This document shows, one piece after another, positions 1 to 6,520 of a stretch of DNA of 64,000 nucleotides (positions within the stretch are counted from its first letter, which is position 1; each line of letters begins with the position of its first letter). Source of the stretch: Desulfatibacillum sp. (GTDB lineage Bacteria > Desulfobacterota > Desulfobacteria > Desulfobacterales > SpSt-501); NCBI GenBank assembly GCA_020725555.1, contig DYEU01000024.1, forward strand, positions 1-64,000, given 5' to 3'. The notes beneath the pieces are model-generated. The model was not told the origin of the DNA, did no database searches, and was given only the letters and a program-made list of their open reading frames with translations. The position numbers and the translations under genes are program-made.

Positions 1-60
1 CTCCCCGCACGAAAACGGCAGGCGGGACCCCTCCCCGCACGAAAACGGCAGGCGGGACGC
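1..60. repeat. Two tandem copies of a 30-bp unit
   Basis: Positions 1-30 and 31-60 are the same 30-base unit, differing only at position 29 of the unit (c versus g). The copies abut without a spacer, so this is not a CRISPR array. The unit is ten codons long and stays in frame with the methyltransferase read on the minus strand, adding a ten-residue repeat containing LPFSCGE. The array may continue left of the window. Confidence 0.9.
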
Positions 61-648
61 CTGCGCTCCCAGCAGTTTTCTCCGCGACTGCGGGTTCACG
101 GGGGGCCGGCCGGCGAACTTGGGCGGGATCTCGATCATGGCCTTGCAGATGAGCACCGCCACGGGGTTGAGATCGGAGGCGTGGCTCTCGAGCCCGAGCC
201 GCTGGGCCTCGAGCGGCAGCGCCCCGCCGCCCGCGAACGGGTCGTGAAAAGCGGGCAGCTTGTGCCGGTCGAAAAGCTCCTTGGCGCGCGGGTGGTCGGC
301 GTTTTCCGCGCAGGCCCGGCGCCAGCTGTTCCAGATCTCATCCCGCGCCTGCTGCAGGACCGCCTCGTTGGTGGTGTTTTCCCACTTCACCAACTCCTCG
401 ATGATCCGGAACAGCCGCTGCCGCTCCTTCTCCTGCTTCTGCCCGGTCGGGAAAAGGTCCGGGTGCGCCGAAGGGTCGTCCACCATCTGCGCGAAGATCA
501 CCGCCCGCGCCGCGGCCAGCGGACGGCGCGCCCACCACAGGTGCAGCGTGCTGGGGTGCCCGTGGCGGATGGACTTCTCCCGCGCCGAGGCCTTGTTGAT
601 CGCCTCCAGCGGGAGCGCGACTTCGATGAGTTTCTTCGTTTGAACCAT
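1..648 (-). CDS. DUF1156-type DNA methyltransferase, N-terminal part (runs off the left edge)
   Basis: The minus-strand frame is open from an ATG at 648 to base 1 (216 codons). The N-terminus, with [20 protein letters not shown] followed by a [20 protein letters not shown] stretch, is the hallmark of DUF1156 proteins, which are large predicted DNA methyltransferases. Around residues 150-160 there is a SAM-binding motif I ([17 protein letters not shown]) and then [10 protein letters not shown]. The catalytic motif lies outside the window. The gene is 48 bases downstream of the GTPase gene and is probably co-transcribed with it and the helicase. Family knowledge: DUF1156 methylases often sit beside helicases and DUF499 proteins in predicted anti-phage loci. 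The last 20 residues visible are a tandem repeat that looks foreign to the family, so the gene may be altered there. Confidence 0.85.
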
Positions 649-696
649 GTCGAGCCGTCATCTCATGGTGATTTTACGTGAAGGGCGCGATAGCCG

Positions 697-2934
697 TCAG
701 GAAGCCCCTGTTTGCGGCAAGGTGGCGAGAATGTCCTCGACATTCGGGTTCGCGGACAGCTCTTTAATTGAGATGTTCGCGTTATTCACGACCTTTTGTG
801 CTTGTTCGGTTGCCGAGCTCACCAGCTGTTCGAAAAGCCCATGGATGATCATCTCCAGGTCTCTCAGCCCCTCGACCAGGTCCTGCTGAATGGCATCGTA
901 TATGGGCCGTGCGGATTCGGTCGCCGCAGGCTCGAGGTGGCCAAGAATGCGCGTTTTTAAAGCGGATCCTTTTTCCTTTTTTGCCTTATCATAAGCGGGC
1001 GTCATTCGCTCCTGAACGACGCGGGGGATTCTCGCTGCAAGTTCCCGCCTTCTCTGGGAAACTGCATTGACTACCTTTTTTGCGGACTCTTCGGTCAATA
1101 AGGAAATCTTCTCCCGGAACCAGCCAAGCTGCTCCTTGAACTGCTTTTCGGATGGACCGAAGAGCATTTCACAAATCAAGAGGATCTTGTCGCAGAAACT
1201 GCTGACGGATTCCGAGATCTGAATGGAAAGCTCATGGGCGACCCGCCCGAGATCATCCGTGAAGTATTGTTCCCACGCAACCGGCAGCCTGGAAAGGAGG
1301 GGTTCCGAGATATCGAGATTGAAGTCATAGTGGCGGCCGGAGGTTGGGCTCCGGAAAGAGCCGTTCCGCTGGACGATCGCCTTGAGAGTGGCCCAATGAA
1401 TGGATCTCCACCCTTGGATCGATTGCTCCACCCCTTGAACGCTTTGTGCAAAGTACGGGTCTATGCGCTCCAAGAACCGTTCCCGATAAGTTTTCAATCT
1501 CTCTTTGGCCCTCTTCTGGGCATCGTCGAGCCTCTTGCCTAGCGACTCGCTTTCCTGCGCAAACCGAGAATGCGCTTCAGCCAGCTTTTGGGAGAAGGGC
1601 TGGGCCTTGGCTCCAAAAAAAAAGGCGATTTCCTCTTTGAGCTTGTTTACACGCTCCAAGGCCTTCTGCGCGTTCGAAGCCGCCCCATGGGTTCCGGCAA
1701 TCCATGAAAGATGCCTGTGAATTCCCGGGATGCCGGTCTCCTCCTCATTTTCCAGCCCGATATCGCTTCGCAACCGGCCGATCCCTTTCAGCTTGTTGTA
1801 GGCTCTCGCGGAGGTGGCATGCACGATCACGCGCCGCGCCATCCGGATCATCCGCGAGAGGGTTTCGCTTTCTTCACGGGGGCCGGCGAGGTCCCGAACC
1901 ATCTCTTCGAGTTGTCTTCGAGCCTCCTTGACCGTTTGTTTGCGGTATTCCCGCACCAACTCCGCGAAGCTGCAATCCTCGGGGAGACCGAGCTGGTCGC
2001 ACGCACTGTGGTCGATGTCATCGGCCCTGGTTCCCACCAGGCTGAGCGTCTGGTACCTTCCGCCCAGAATGAGCGCCCGGAGAAGCTTCTCCTCTTTCAG
2101 AATGCGCTGGATGTCGTCGGTCAAGCCCCGCACCATGGAAAACACGATCCAGAGGAAGGGGGAGCTTCTCAGGAATTTTTTCGTCACCTCAACCCGGGCC
2201 TCGTTGGGGTCGTTCAGGCCGGGCAGATCCACGAGCTCCAGGCCGCCCTGCAAACATGCATAGGGGCCGCTCAGGTTCACCTCCTTGACGAGGGGCCACA
2301 GGGGGCTATCGCCTCGCACAAGCTTGCGAAGGTGCGCCAGCATGGCTTTTGGGTCATCGAACACCAGCTTCTCAACCGAACCCCGGGAAAACACCTTTTC
2401 CACCTCCTCGGGGAGCGGGGGCAAGCGATCGGGGGAAAAATTTTCAAACGATTGCCCATAGACCGCCTGGATCCTCTTCCTTGCGGCCTCCATGAGCTTT
2501 CGGTCGGCCTCCTCTTCATCCTCGGGCGGCTCCAGGGCCGAGGACAGGGCTTCCAGGTCCTTGCGCCACTCCTCCGGGCGGCAGTATTGGACCTTCAACC
2601 CGTATTCCGGGCCGACCGAGTAGCGAACCGTCGTCACGAAAGCGGTGCAAGGCCTCATCACCCCCACCGGCAGAAGCTCCTGTCCCAGAACTGCGTTGAG
2701 CAGGGTCGATTTCCCGGACCCTGTGGTACCGACCAAGGCGATCCGGATCCGCCGCGGTTCCTTGAGCAGGGATCGGATCGCATCGAGCTCCTTTTTCCAG
2801 GAACTCAACTCGTGAGCCCAGGAACCCTGGGATGCCTTGACGACTTTCCGCTCAAACCAGTCGGAGAAGGCATTCACCGCGTCGGTCGCTTTCCGGATCC
2901 ATCGGGTCGACTCGGCAAAATTTACCGTTTCCAT
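697..2934 (-). CDS. Dynamin-family GTPase, middle gene of the putative defence operon
   Basis: 745 residues. A GTPase domain near the N-terminus has P-loop GTTGSGKST at residues 69-77, a threonine-rich switch I region (CTAFVTTV, about 96-103), switch II DLPG at 236-239 and a G4-like TRAD at 302-305 in place of the usual NKxD/TKxD. The C-terminal half (about 420-720) is rich in Lys, Glu and Ala and looks helical or coiled coil, as in dynamin stalks. No transmembrane segment is obvious. Known: bacterial dynamin-like proteins remodel membranes, and some act in phage defence (LeoBC/Eleos type). The gene starts 7 bases after the helicase stop, so it is cotranscribed. Base composition is visibly more AT-rich than the flanks, suggesting transfer. 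A run of nine T on the coding strand (bases 1615-1623) encodes three Phe and is slippage-prone. Confidence 0.85.
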   Translation of the reverse strand: METVNFAESTRWIRKATDAVNAFSDWFERKVVKASQGSWAHELSSWKKELDAIRSLLKEPRRIRIALVGTTGSGKSTLLNAVLGQELLPVGVMRPCTAFVTTVRYSVGPEYGLKVQYCRPEEWRKDLEALSSALEPPEDEEEADRKLMEAARKRIQAVYGQSFENFSPDRLPPLPEEVEKVFSRGSVEKLVFDDPKAMLAHLRKLVRGDSPLWPLVKEVNLSGPYACLQGGLELVDLPGLNDPNEARVEVTKKFLRSSPFLWIVFSMVRGLTDDIQRILKEEKLLRALILGGRYQTLSLVGTRADDIDHSACDQLGLPEDCSFAELVREYRKQTVKEARRQLEEMVRDLAGPREESETLSRMIRMARRVIVHATSARAYNKLKGIGRLRSDIGLENEEETGIPGIHRHLSWIAGTHGAASNAQKALERVNKLKEEIAFFFGAKAQPFSQKLAEAHSRFAQESESLGKRLDDAQKRAKERLKTYRERFLERIDPYFAQSVQGVEQSIQGWRSIHWATLKAIVQRNGSFRSPTSGRHYDFNLDISEPLLSRLPVAWEQYFTDDLGRVAHELSIQISESVSSFCDKILLICEMLFGPSEKQFKEQLGWFREKISLLTEESAKKVVNAVSQRRRELAARIPRVVQERMTPAYDKAKKEKGSALKTRILGHLEPAATESARPIYDAIQQDLVEGLRDLEMIIHGLFEQLVSSATEQAQKVVNNANISIKELSANPNVEDILATLPQTGAS

Positions 2935-2941
2935 GTCGCAC

Positions 2942-5900
2942 TCAAGCAGGGGCGGCCGCTCTGGAGAGGAGTTCGCTGAAAGCGTAGTTGACGCTGGTTA
3001 CCCCAAAATCCGGCTCCCTCCGAAAGGGATTCCGGACATAGTGCACCCGATGGGCGCCGTCCTCCAGGAACTCGACAATGGCAAGGATGAACTCCTCGGG
3101 TTTGTTCAGCGAGCAGAGGATTTCATTGCGGGTGACGGTGACGGTGTGGGCGTTGGATACCCGGCCCTTCACCTCCAGGAATCGCAGCTTGCCGTTGCGA
3201 GGGTCCATGCTTTCGATGTCGTAGCCGAGTTTTTCCGATTCGCGATCCACCGGCTGGTAGCCCAGGCTGCGTTCCACCCCCATGATGATCTCCCGCGCCC
3301 GGGCGGCCGCCGCCCGGGTGTCGGCCGCGCCGCCTTCAAACCGCAGGCTTTGGCCCCTCATCTTCGCGATCAGCCCGATCGGAACGACCATGAACCCCCC
3401 CAGGACCACCGGCGGCAGGGCGGAGATCTGCCCCTCCAGGTCGAGCTGCGCCAGACGCTTCTCCAGGCGCGCCTGCAGGTCATCCGCCCGCCGGCGGGCC
3501 TCCTGGGAGTTGAGCCGCGCGTTGACCCTGCCCGCCTGCTCCTGGAGTTTCAGCTCCTCGGCCCGGTGGTCCCAGTAGTTGATCTCCTTGGTCAGGCGGT
3601 CCTTGACGGCGGCGCGGGTCTTCTCGATCCAGCCAAGGCGCCGGTCGCTCACCTCCTTAAGATGCTCCGGGACCACCCGGGCAATCGCGTGAGCCTGGGC
3701 TTTCGGTTCCAACTCGCGGCTGATCCAAGAACACTCGGGCCGTTCGAAGATCGCCTGGACGTCGGGTTCCTCCGGCCGCAGCGGCCGAAAGTCCAGGTAG
3801 GGCGCATAGTGCAGGTGCCGGATTCCGCCGCCGGCATCGATTTCCACGTACAGCATCCGCTTCGATATCACGCGGCGCTCGCCGCTGCGGGTGAGGCTTG
3901 CGTCCTGGATGGCGTGCTCCAGGTAAAAGACGACGCGGGGGGAATCGCCCGGGTCGCGCTCGTCCACCAGGACCGCGCCCCGGCGCAGGAGGTCCCGGTG
4001 GCGCTCGAGTGTCAGGTCCAGGGTGGCGTCGAGCAGGGGATGGCCCGGGCAGACGAACGCGGCAAGCGGCTGCCCGGGGAGGGCGATGAGGGGTTTCTCG
4101 AAGACGATGCGCTCGTAGCGGGGAAGCACGGGTTCGCCGATGCCGATCAGCCGGTCGCGGTTGCGGATGGGGGCTGACACATGGGTGATCTCATACCGGC
4201 GCGGCTCGCGCTGCCGCAAGGTCCCTCCCAAATATCTGAAGGCTTCCAGGAAAAAGGACTCGATGTAATGCGGCTGCAGCCGCCGGGCCTCCGCGCGCTC
4301 CATGTCGGCCCGGACACGCCGCACCCGGCCGATGTCCATGGCATCCTGCACCAGGCCGCGGTTTTCGAGCAGCTCCCGGAGTTGGTCGCGGTCGAAGGCC
4401 CCTTCCACGGCCCGATTCAGCCGGGCCCGCACTTCGGGAAGTTCCCCATAGCGGATGGCCTCGATGAGAAGCTCGCGCAGGGGCCGGCCGCCGAACTGGA
4501 GCTTCCCCAACACGTCGAACACCTGCCCGCCGAGCGCCTTGCGGGCCTCTTCGAGCTTTTCGAGAAGCCTCCGGTAGACATCGCCCTCGCGGGTCTCTTC
4601 GGCGACCAGGTTCCACAGGTGACAGACCTCGGTCTGGCCGATGCGATGGATGCGGCCGAAGCGCTGTTCGATCCGGTTGGGGTTCCAGGGGAGGTCGTAG
4701 TTGACCATCAGATGGGCGCGCTGGAGGTTGATGCCCTCGCCGGCGGCGTCGGTTGCGACCAGCACCTGCACATCGGGATCGTGCTTGAAGGACTCCTGGG
4801 CCTTCAAACGCTCCTCCCGGCCCATGCCGCCGTGGATGATCACCACCGCCTCCTTGCGGCCCAGGAGTGTCGCAATGCGGCTTGCGAGGTAGTTGAGCGT
4901 GTCCCGGTGTTCGGTGAAGACAACCAGCTTCTGCCGGGGGGAGGGCTTCGGTTTGGGGATGGGGCCGGCGCCGTAGGGCGCGGGGGGTTCCGCCACGCAT
5001 TGGGCGGTCGCAGCAGGGGTGAAGATCTCGCATAAAAGGGAGGCCAGCTCCCGCCACTTGCGGTCCTCCCCGCTGCGGCGCACCGCCAGCGCCAGGGCCT
5101 CCAGCTCCCGGAGGGTGGCGATTTCCGCCTTCAACTCGTCGATGGTCCGAGCGGCGGTGGCCTGGTCGAGGATCTTCTCCTCGGCTTCCTGAACCTCGCG
5201 ATCGGGGGCCTCCTCCAGGTCCTCCACATCCTCGTCGTCCAGGCCGGGAAGGCTTTCCGCCAGGGCGGCCGCGACCGCCCCGCGCTGCAGAAGCTCGAGT
5301 TCCCGGAGCTTTCTCTCCAAGCGCTCCCGGCGCCGGCGAAGCGACTGGTAGATGGCCTCCGGCGAGGAGGCCAGCCGCCGCTGAAGAATGGTCAGGGCGA
5401 ACCCGACGGTGCCGGCCCGCTTGTCGTTTTGCAGGGCCTCGGCCCGGTTGAACTCCTCGCGCACGTAGTCGGTGACCGCTTTATAGAGCCGGGCCTCGCC
5501 GTCGGAGAGCTTGTAGGGTACGGTGTAGGCGATGCGTTCGGGGAAAAGGGGCGTGCCGTCGAATTTGAGCAGCCGCTCCTTGACCATGCGCCGCATCAGG
5601 TCGGATACGTCGGCGGTGTGCACCCCGTCACGGAAGCGGCCCTCGAAGCGGTCCCCGTCGATCAGGGCCATGAAGAGCTGGAAATCCTCTTCCTTGCCGT
5701 TGTGAGGGGTGGCCGTCATCAGCAGAAAATGCCGCGTCAGGGTGGAAAGCATCTGCCCCAATCGGTAGCGCTTGGTGTATTTGACCTCGGAGCCGAAGAA
5801 GGAGGCCGACATCTTGTGGGCCTCGTCGCAGACCACCAAGTCCCAGCGGCATTCGGGCGCCTGGAGCTTCTGTCGGACCTCTTCGTCGCGCGAGAGCTTG

Positions 5901-6520
5901 TCGAGCCGGGCGATGACGAGGTGGGTTTCAAGAAACCAGTTGCCGGTGCGGGCGGCTTCGAGCTTGTCGTTGGTGAGGATTTCGAACGGCAACTGAAACC
6001 GCCGCCAAAGCTCATCCTGCCATTGTTCGACCAGGCTGCCGGGGCATACGATCAGGCAGCGCTGCAGGTCGCCGCGGACGATGAGCTCTTTGATGAGCAG
6101 CCCGGCCATGATGGTCTTGCCGGCCCCGGGGTCGTCGGCGAGCAAGAACCGCAAAGGCTGACGTGGCAACATCACCTCATAGACCGCTGTGATCTGGTGA
6201 GGCAGCGGCTCCACCAGAGAGGTGTGCACGGCCAGCACAGGATCAAAGAGATGGGCCAGGCGGATGCGGTGGGCCTCGGAAACCAGCCGGAAGAGGTGCC
6301 CGTCGCCGTCAAAGCTCCAGGGCCGCCCCTGCTCGACGACCTCGATGCGCGGCTCGTCGTGCCGATAAAGGAGCTGACTGGCGAGCCTGCCGGAAGGGTC
6401 TTTGTAGGTCAGCTCGAGGGCCTCTGAGCCGAACCATTGGACGTTCACCACGGTGACAAGACAATCGGGCAGGATCCCCTTGAGGAAGGCGTTCGGCCGG
6501 AGCTCTTCGAGTCTGCTCAT
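2942..6520 (-). CDS. SNF2-type superfamily 2 helicase with C-terminal DUF3883 (nuclease-like) domain
   Basis: 1192 residues. The helicase core has Walker A DPGAGKT at about 130-136, DEAH at 232-235, motif III (LLMTATPHNGKEEDF), and a second lobe with VATDAAGEGINLQ and QRFGRIHRIGQ. A charged helical insert (about 395-490) separates the lobes. The extreme C-terminus carries YDIESMD followed by FLEVKGR (about 1100-1120), the DUF3883 pattern, which resembles PD-(D/E)xK nucleases. Helicases of this build (also DrmD of DISARM) move on DNA and are common in anti-phage loci beside DUF1156 methylases. It is the first gene of a three-gene operon. The ATG at 6520 is the first Met of the conserved N-terminus, and its ribosome binding site is weak. 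The role in defence is inferred from context. Confidence 0.85.
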   Translation of the reverse strand: MSRLEELRPNAFLKGILPDCLVTVVNVQWFGSEALELTYKDPSGRLASQLLYRHDEPRIEVVEQGRPWSFDGDGHLFRLVSEAHRIRLAHLFDPVLAVHTSLVEPLPHQITAVYEVMLPRQPLRFLLADDPGAGKTIMAGLLIKELIVRGDLQRCLIVCPGSLVEQWQDELWRRFQLPFEILTNDKLEAARTGNWFLETHLVIARLDKLSRDEEVRQKLQAPECRWDLVVCDEAHKMSASFFGSEVKYTKRYRLGQMLSTLTRHFLLMTATPHNGKEEDFQLFMALIDGDRFEGRFRDGVHTADVSDLMRRMVKERLLKFDGTPLFPERIAYTVPYKLSDGEARLYKAVTDYVREEFNRAEALQNDKRAGTVGFALTILQRRLASSPEAIYQSLRRRRERLERKLRELELLQRGAVAAALAESLPGLDDEDVEDLEEAPDREVQEAEEKILDQATAARTIDELKAEIATLRELEALALAVRRSGEDRKWRELASLLCEIFTPAATAQCVAEPPAPYGAGPIPKPKPSPRQKLVVFTEHRDTLNYLASRIATLLGRKEAVVIIHGGMGREERLKAQESFKHDPDVQVLVATDAAGEGINLQRAHLMVNYDLPWNPNRIEQRFGRIHRIGQTEVCHLWNLVAEETREGDVYRRLLEKLEEARKALGGQVFDVLGKLQFGGRPLRELLIEAIRYGELPEVRARLNRAVEGAFDRDQLRELLENRGLVQDAMDIGRVRRVRADMERAEARRLQPHYIESFFLEAFRYLGGTLRQREPRRYEITHVSAPIRNRDRLIGIGEPVLPRYERIVFEKPLIALPGQPLAAFVCPGHPLLDATLDLTLERHRDLLRRGAVLVDERDPGDSPRVVFYLEHAIQDASLTRSGERRVISKRMLYVEIDAGGGIRHLHYAPYLDFRPLRPEEPDVQAIFERPECSWISRELEPKAQAHAIARVVPEHLKEVSDRRLGWIEKTRAAVKDRLTKEINYWDHRAEELKLQEQAGRVNARLNSQEARRRADDLQARLEKRLAQLDLEGQISALPPVVLGGFMVVPIGLIAKMRGQSLRFEGGAADTRAAAARAREIIMGVERSLGYQPVDRESEKLGYDIESMDPRNGKLRFLEVKGRVSNAHTVTVTRNEILCSLNKPEEFILAIVEFLEDGAHRVHYVRNPFRREPDFGVTSVNYAFSELLSRAAAPA

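Follow-up and report, generated by a model that had tools for sequence, protein, structure and literature searches.

The locus considered here lies at positions 1 to 6,520 of the window, that is, of the whole stretch of 64,000 nucleotides from Desulfatibacillum sp. that was analysed (GenBank assembly GCA_020725555.1, contig DYEU01000024.1, positions 1 to 64,000). It carries three genes of the minus strand, which encode a SNF2 helicase, a dynamin-family GTPase and a DUF1156 methyltransferase. The source genome (3.59 Mb) is assembled in 35 contigs; the window is contig C18 and starts at its base 1. The features of the locus are as follows.

2942..6520, minus strand: hmaA, SNF2 helicase-nuclease, 1192 residues, first gene of the operon (PADLOC and Pfam)
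3038..3301, minus strand: NOV_C domain of HmaA, PD-(D/E)XK-like, with GYD and EVKG (PF13020)
697..2934, minus strand: dynamin-family GTPase gene, 745 residues, cargo of the slot between hmaA and hmaB (Dynamin_N and DUF7605, Pfam)
2707..2730, minus strand: G1/P-loop of the dynamin, GTTGSGKS (motif)
946..1437, minus strand: DUF7605 domain of the dynamin, including the HWATLKA motif (PF24564)
1..648, minus strand: 5' part of hmaB, DUF1156 adenine methyltransferase, 216 residues, cut by the contig edge (PDLC00660, DUF1156)
1..62, no strand: copies of a 30-bp repeat, ten residues per unit, at the contig edge, common to the end of contig C13
1..648 of the window with L014:8828-11857, and L093:15426-17101 and L113:13798-17382 in two related loci: HmaB with a Y1 transposase domain

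A first-pass annotation, made from the letters of the window, had proposed that these three packed genes form an undescribed anti-phage system. Its description of the layout was confirmed. The helicase and dynamin genes are separated by 7 bases and the dynamin and methyltransferase genes by 48, and Pfam finds SNF2, Helicase_C and NOV_C domains in the first product, Dynamin_N and DUF7605 in the second and DUF1156 in the third. The G+C content is also lower than in the flanks, at 63.3% (positions 1-6520) vs. 70.6% (7001-64000). The dynamin gene has the lowest value of the locus (57.8%, with 71% at third codon positions, GC3), followed by hmaA (65.9%, GC3 85%) and by the hmaB and hmaC parts (68-69%, GC3 88-92%).

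The window helicase matched the PADLOC model of HmaA (PDLC00659) with 1697 bits over model positions 1-1172 of 1176. Its Pfam domains are SNF2-rel_dom, Helicase_C and NOV_C (residues 1074-1161, expectation value (E) 4e-17), the last presumably the former DUF3883; a Walker A motif, GAGKT, lies at residue 132 and a DEAH motif at residue 232. NOV_C holds the pattern GYD...EVKG, with EVKG at residue 1116, and is a putative active nuclease, judging by the description of the PD-(D/E)XK domain in the available part of PMC12839542. Two other assignments were considered and rejected. The score against DrmD of DISARM was 362 bits, below the equivalog cut-off of 610, and membership in the Type-2 BREX-related (BR) group was discarded, the helicase having NOV_C and no phospholipase D (PLD) match.

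The methyltransferase is incomplete because the window opens at base 1 of its contig. The part present scored 114 bits against DUF1156 and 365 bits against HmaB (PDLC00660), covering about positions 6-198 of the 967 in the model. The remaining hmaB was found on contig C13 (L014:8828-11857, model positions 207-965, 1202 bits), reading toward the contig end. Positions 1-62 of the window are 98% identical to C13:11771-11832, where a 30-bp repeat array (5.4 copies, period 30) spans L014:11696-11858, and the ends of both contigs read the same ten-residue unit in the HmaB frame. Since 30 bases are ten codons, the frame of hmaB is kept at any copy number. The in-frame array at both contig ends probably broke the assembly there.

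After hmaB, C13 carries an AAA_14/DUF4143 ATPase gene and then the gene of a HEPN_Swt1 (132 bits) plus DUF499 protein, which is HmaC (1150 bits). The HmaA and HmaC models are matched near full length and the HmaB model in two complementary pieces, which make up one gene only on condition that the contigs join. The three genes keep the same strand and order over two contigs that have the in-frame repeat in common at their ends. The order of the operon, with the join inferred, is likely to be hmaA, dynamin, hmaB, AAA_14/DUF4143, hmaC. The first-pass annotation had proposed a look to the left of the window for genes such as DUF499 and DUF3780; the former is present on C13 as hmaC, and the latter, a Type-2 BR marker, was absent from the seven scanned proteins of the two contigs.

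On these model matches the locus is a Hma (Type-1 BR) core plus two extra genes. Hma was named in 2021 by Payne et al., who described an operon of three genes, for a helicase, a methyltransferase and an ATPase, and reported it from 26 phyla, according to the part of that paper that was available (PMC8565338). The sections available of a 2026 paper (PMC12839542) treat the same system as the Type-1 DUF499-centred BR, in which the helicase ends in a PD-(D/E)XK nuclease, the methyltransferase is a DUF1156 N6-methyltransferase and the DUF499 ATPases often carry a HEPN fusion; they cite a study in which phage defence by the Type-1 BR helicase was confirmed experimentally. The view of the locus as a defence locus is upheld by the matches to all three Hma models, while the claim of an undescribed three-gene system is not supported, the core having been published under both names. 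Like Hma, the locus has a helicase with a C-terminal PD-(D/E)XK-like domain, a DUF1156 methyltransferase and a DUF499 ATPase with an N-terminal Swt1-like HEPN domain, in the order hmaA, hmaB, hmaC that is also seen in most of the census loci (below) showing all three. It differs in the dynamin between hmaA and hmaB, the AAA_14/DUF4143 ATPase between hmaB and hmaC and the Y1 transposase domain in HmaB.

The Y1 transposase domain, presumably of the REP-associated type, lies in frame in one loop of HmaB in the source genome, L093 and L113, and no stop codon interrupts the parts covered. It is inserted between ...AGRPPVNP and ...GLAEDVRYYG, where other HmaB proteins, such as those of L094 and L105, show a loop that is short and variable. 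Between the source genome and L093 the transposase parts are 80% identical; the part in L113 is 59% identical to that of the source genome. These inserts could stem from a common domain insertion or from an in-frame site hit repeatedly.

Genes of the AAA_14/DUF4143 type occupy the hmaB-hmaC gap also in L114 and L170, and homologues of the ATPase next to hmaC fill both gaps of the operon in these two loci (L114:13590-21612 and L170:13604-19446). The source genome has a second, divergent Hma-like locus on contig C31 (L015:11207-18363 and L085:4081-7536), with genes for a DUF499 protein, a DUF1156 methyltransferase and a helicase (578 bits against HmaA); a 296-residue protein without a Pfam match is encoded between the helicase and the methyltransferase.

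The dynamin exceeded the Pfam cut-offs, which are 27 bits each, for both Dynamin_N (68.8 bits, E 7.5e-19) and DUF7605 (PF24564, residues 500-663, 46.5 bits, E 5e-12). Its GTPase motifs are G1 (GTTGSGKS, residue 69), G3 (DLPG, residue 236) and a G4-like TRAD (residue 302); G69 and S73-T77 are invariant in eight bacterial dynamins. The nearest solved chain by sequence was the bacterial dynamin-like protein 2j68, followed by mitofusins, in the G-domain region. In a hydropathy analysis the best 19-residue mean was 1.15, with no strongly hydrophobic segment. The single-sequence structure prediction was unusable (mean predicted local distance difference test score of 42). An assignment to the LeoA/LeoBC system, which is presumably the one named Eleos, was rejected. 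Eleos also has a dynamin-like GTPase; however, the protein reached only 25 bits against LeoBC and 19 bits against LeoA, over its N-terminal 92 residues, and the window has a single dynamin gene with no partner dynamin.

The gap between hmaA and hmaB was evaluated in a census of related loci. From an alignment of 11 HmaA proteins, the best 80 of 585 confirmed loci were taken, with titles from many phyla. In 61 of them hmaB follows hmaA on the same strand; the other 19, in which the contig ended or hmaB was missing or in reverse orientation, were excluded. A gap was scored as holding cargo when it contained at least one co-directional open reading frame (ORF) of at least 90 residues. Two ORFs were not accepted as cargo: one of 488 residues in L113, where HmaA is split and the ORF encodes its C-terminal half, and one of 93 residues in L168, a fragment of HmaB. 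L118 and L089 are the same species.

The slot is occupied in most of these relatives. Cargo was found in 45 of the 61 loci; 11 had a gap of at most 120 bp without cargo, and 5 had a longer gap without cargo. The figure of 45 is a low count, because the rule missed co-directional ORFs that overlap hmaA by more than 30 nt in their longest frame (406 residues in L130, 144 residues in L161) and because the slot of L166 is filled by two ORFs on the opposite strand. Occupied gaps range from 538 to 6178 bp. The cargo is co-directional and often overlaps the preceding gene: in 44 of the 45 occupied loci the largest ORF of the slot runs in the direction of the operon, and the first cargo ORF shares 4 nt with the end of hmaA in 24 and starts at most 60 nt away in 32. 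Such ORFs were found in the hmaB-hmaC gap of 18 of 46 loci.

The slot proteins were also searched for known families. The tallies cover 134 of 141 proteins, of at least 120 residues and including one core fragment (L113); 68 Pfam families were matched, 25 of which were listed. The counts were 19 for AAA_21, 18 for AAA_15, 9 for HATPase_c_4, 7 each for SLFN_AlbA_2 and Sacsin, 4 each for RloB, AAA_14 and DUF4143, and 2 each for GmrSD_N, Fic, HEPN, PIN and NYN. PADLOC matches to AriA (19) and AbiLi (15) come from overlapping ATPase models and name families, not whole systems. Single cases included an Hsp70 (L060) and an AAA-ATPase_like plus PDDEXK_9 protein after hmaA (L062). The slot of a Gloeocapsa plasmid holds an annotated AAA ATPase and DUF4435 pair, presumably PARIS-like. 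Several scanned slot proteins had no Pfam match. A very large cargo family (1191-1526 residues) was seen in seven slots (L096, L100, L106, L116, L137, L153 and L162); its member in L100 matches Sacsin and HATPase_c_3 (Hsp90-like), and that in L096 matched nothing in Pfam at E 0.001.

The cargo turns over rapidly. The identity of HmaA was compared with the homology of the cargo in 52 loci with an occupied slot, in pairs that are not independent. When HmaA was at least 80% identical, homologous cargo was detected in 6 of 58 locus pairs and none was detected in the other 52; the corresponding figures were 34/500 at 70-80%, 20/543 at 60-70% and 6/171 at 50-60% identity. The closest relative found among the best 80 of 585, L093, shares 88% identity in HmaA and 92% over 184 residues of HmaB with the window, and it has a DUF4062 plus HATPase_c_4 protein in place of the dynamin. 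At the DNA level, L093 and the window are similar up to the hmaA stop codon and again from within the 5' end of hmaB. Together with the deviant G+C content of the dynamin gene, this break is consistent with a gene exchanged at an existing slot.

Homologues of the dynamin were sought in 91 other Hma loci, consisting of the 80 census loci, 7 loci of the same phylum picked from those fetched, and 4 plasmid loci; the hmaA-hmaB gap is complete in 71 of them (61 and 10). The queries were the window protein, a profile of eight dynamins and a profile of the window protein with L178, a dynamin described below. Both profiles recovered the window protein and nine dynamins of the same phylum; seven of these nine controls belong to the eight-row profile, leaving L074 and L076 as independent controls, and all nine are independent of the two-row profile. 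No dynamin was found anywhere in the fetched stretches of the 91 loci, nor in 14 further same-phylum loci that bear HmaA (L038, L063-L068 and L079-L085, of which L085 is from the source genome). The combination of helicase, dynamin and DUF1156 methyltransferase, on whose recurrence the first-pass annotation had staked its proposal, therefore does not recur in this sample.

In wider searches with the protein, dynamins were found in 10 of 297 genomes of the same phylum, including the source genome (E up to 1e-10). The nine others match in the G domain only, at about 30% identity, and none has hmaA, hmaB or hmaC within the fetched 6-20 kb. A search for the DUF7605 family in the 297 genomes gave three matches at E up to 0.001, and only the source genome was above the cut-off. 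The phylum of a Thauera genome gave 0 of 398 (E up to 1e-12) and that of an Acidobacteria-titled genome 0 of 227, in searches that had no internal positive control. One match each was found in the phylum of a Chloroflexi-titled genome (1/231, residues 49-348) and in that of a Planctomycetales-titled genome (1/199, residues 167-705), the latter being L178. Twelve genomes with Hma loci yielded three weak G-domain matches. Five Escherichia plasmid records match residues 54-264 only, at 31% identity. No relative was found in viral contigs with the single protein or the two-row profile, phage records gave no dynamin match, and the L178 protein had no match in plasmids and was absent from 38 relatives of its own genome.

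The dynamin looks like a rare cargo of the hmaA-hmaB slot and not like part of a new three-gene system. The reading favoured here, with a probability of about 0.6, is that of a Hma operon in which the dynamin is an exchangeable, possibly membrane-acting accessory effector. Judging by the published families, HmaB would mark self DNA, and HmaA and HmaC would scan and cut unmarked DNA. In the weakest part of the scheme, the dynamin would be co-expressed with hmaA and would be a second-line effector: polymerising with GTP, in all likelihood at the membrane, it would delay or blunt phage release once restriction fails. The bacterial dynamin DynA of Bacillus delays lysis after phage infection, according to the available part of PMC8844932, and on this ground a second-line role at the membrane is reasonable. 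Both proteins are bacterial dynamin-family GTPases, and DynA is phage-protective; however, in that text DynA acts with no restriction-like partner, a DUF7605 part is present in the window protein, and the likeness is one of protein family.

Several observations weigh against this reading. The presence of dynamin in none of the 91 loci leaves selection for a dynamin-Hma pairing unsupported, and the lack of a strongly hydrophobic segment means that the protein's own sequence gives no sign of membrane action. Dynamins of a Pseudomonas element that were predicted as defence genes were inactive against the phages tested, according to the accessible part of PMC12595487. The in-frame transposase insert could have damaged the methyltransferase. 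C13 and C18 are separate in the assembly and their join is only inferred. The AAA_14/DUF4143 gene resembles the core in composition (G+C 70.1%, GC3 90%), and the 7-nt spacing of hmaA and dynamin lacks the 4-nt overlap common in relatives. Moreover, the census was confined to the loci with the greatest similarity to the query, and its percentages are valid for that clade, and three slot ORFs are transposase-like (L091, L115 and L149), with many others having no named function.

The possibility was considered that the dynamin and a SNF2 helicase form one DNA-acting machine, in which the dynamin, driven by GTP, would serve on DNA as a scaffold or sensor. The evidence for this comes mainly from L178, a dynamin of the unrelated genome G1317. 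It has the HWATLKA motif and can be aligned in co-linear fashion with the window protein over residues 20-706 of the latter (22% identity over 795 aligned positions). It directly precedes the gene of a SNF2 helicase nearest to the BrxH/DrmD models, which scores 127 bits against HmaA and has no NOV_C; the overlap of the two ORFs is 61 nt if the helicase is read in its longest frame and 4 nt if it is read from its first ATG. The lack of a strongly hydrophobic segment in the window dynamin would also suit a role on DNA, and SLIP-GC, a eukaryotic relative, is nuclear. However, L178 is one further case only, with a reversed gene order and a helicase that is not HmaA, and its neighbourhood is incomplete because the 6-kb contig ends 263 bp past the helicase. 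It has no DUF7605 match at E 0.001, so a common subfamily with the window dynamin is not certain. Furthermore, the 91 loci without a dynamin indicate that HmaA does not need one. A joint DNA-acting machine is judged unlikely, and the membrane-acting second-line role was tentatively ranked ahead of the helicase-coupled one. L178:443-5820 may be a two-gene dynamin-helicase module; a weak, below-cut-off zinc-ribbon match was noted at the N terminus of its dynamin.

It is less probable still that the dynamin is a chance neighbour, inserted without a defence role or decaying in a possibly inactive operon. Its deviant G+C content, the transposase domain within hmaB and the absence of dynamins from the 91 related loci would all agree with this explanation. 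However, the dynamin reading frame is unbroken and retains the GTPase motifs, and the gene is on the same strand as its neighbours, with gaps of 7 and 48 bases. The slot is similarly filled in 45 of 61 loci, partly by genes that match defence models, and the transposase insert lies in frame at the same site in two related HmaB genes. A dedicated new helicase-dynamin-methyltransferase system, for which the tight packing of the genes and the lack of literature on the combination might be cited, is very improbable and, for the sampled clade, refuted, since HmaC on the second contig identifies the core as Hma, dynamin was found in 0 of the 91 loci and 0 of the 9 same-phylum homologues lies near hmaA, hmaB or hmaC in 6-20 kb.

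The accessory-effector reading may extend beyond this operon, although this is doubtful: such dynamins would be a class of effectors plugged into helicase-based restriction-like operons (Hma here, another helicase in L178), with the hmaA-hmaB gap as a general loading site. The estimate was lowered slightly because L178 has no DUF7605 match. If this wider reading is correct, cells would swap second-line effectors at the hmaA-hmaB junction under the control of one restriction-like core. The dynamin would then connect a restriction-like defence with the GTPase family to which immune GTPases of animals also belong, and such a layered defence is directly testable. A general loading site between hmaA and hmaB would make one spot of a widespread operon a guide to unknown defence effectors, and a gene with a 4-nt overlap on the hmaA stop would be a candidate effector.

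Extra genes within such an operon are partly known, since BREX and BR loci with nuclease effectors inside them have been described (PMC12839542, section 35, part of which was available). Like those auxiliary or backup nucleases, the dynamin is an extra gene inside a core operon, and Schlafen, OLD-type ATPases, HEPN, PIN and GmrSD are common to the portion seen of that catalogue and the census. Unlike the window, the catalogue, as far as available, covers nucleases, and its main text (supplements aside) has no dynamin, GTPase, Hsp70, Sacsin, Fic or DUF4143 in that portion. Literature searches returned nothing that pairs dynamin with DUF1156 or with DUF499, no title on dynamin with Hma or HmaC among the matches listed, and nothing for SLIP-GC with bacteria or for nested defence genes; the part available of PMC12458937 has no mention of Hma, dynamin or DUF1156. 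The first-pass interpretation is partly supported in that these searches gave no literature on dynamin with DUF1156 or DUF499 and in that the dynamin of L178 also precedes a SNF2 helicase. A further dynamin, of a Leo-like type (74 bits against the LeoA model), was observed in a defence-like cluster of another genome (G1153, L179:2193-19128), near helicases of the UvrD type and a SNF2 helicase that matches PLD weakly.

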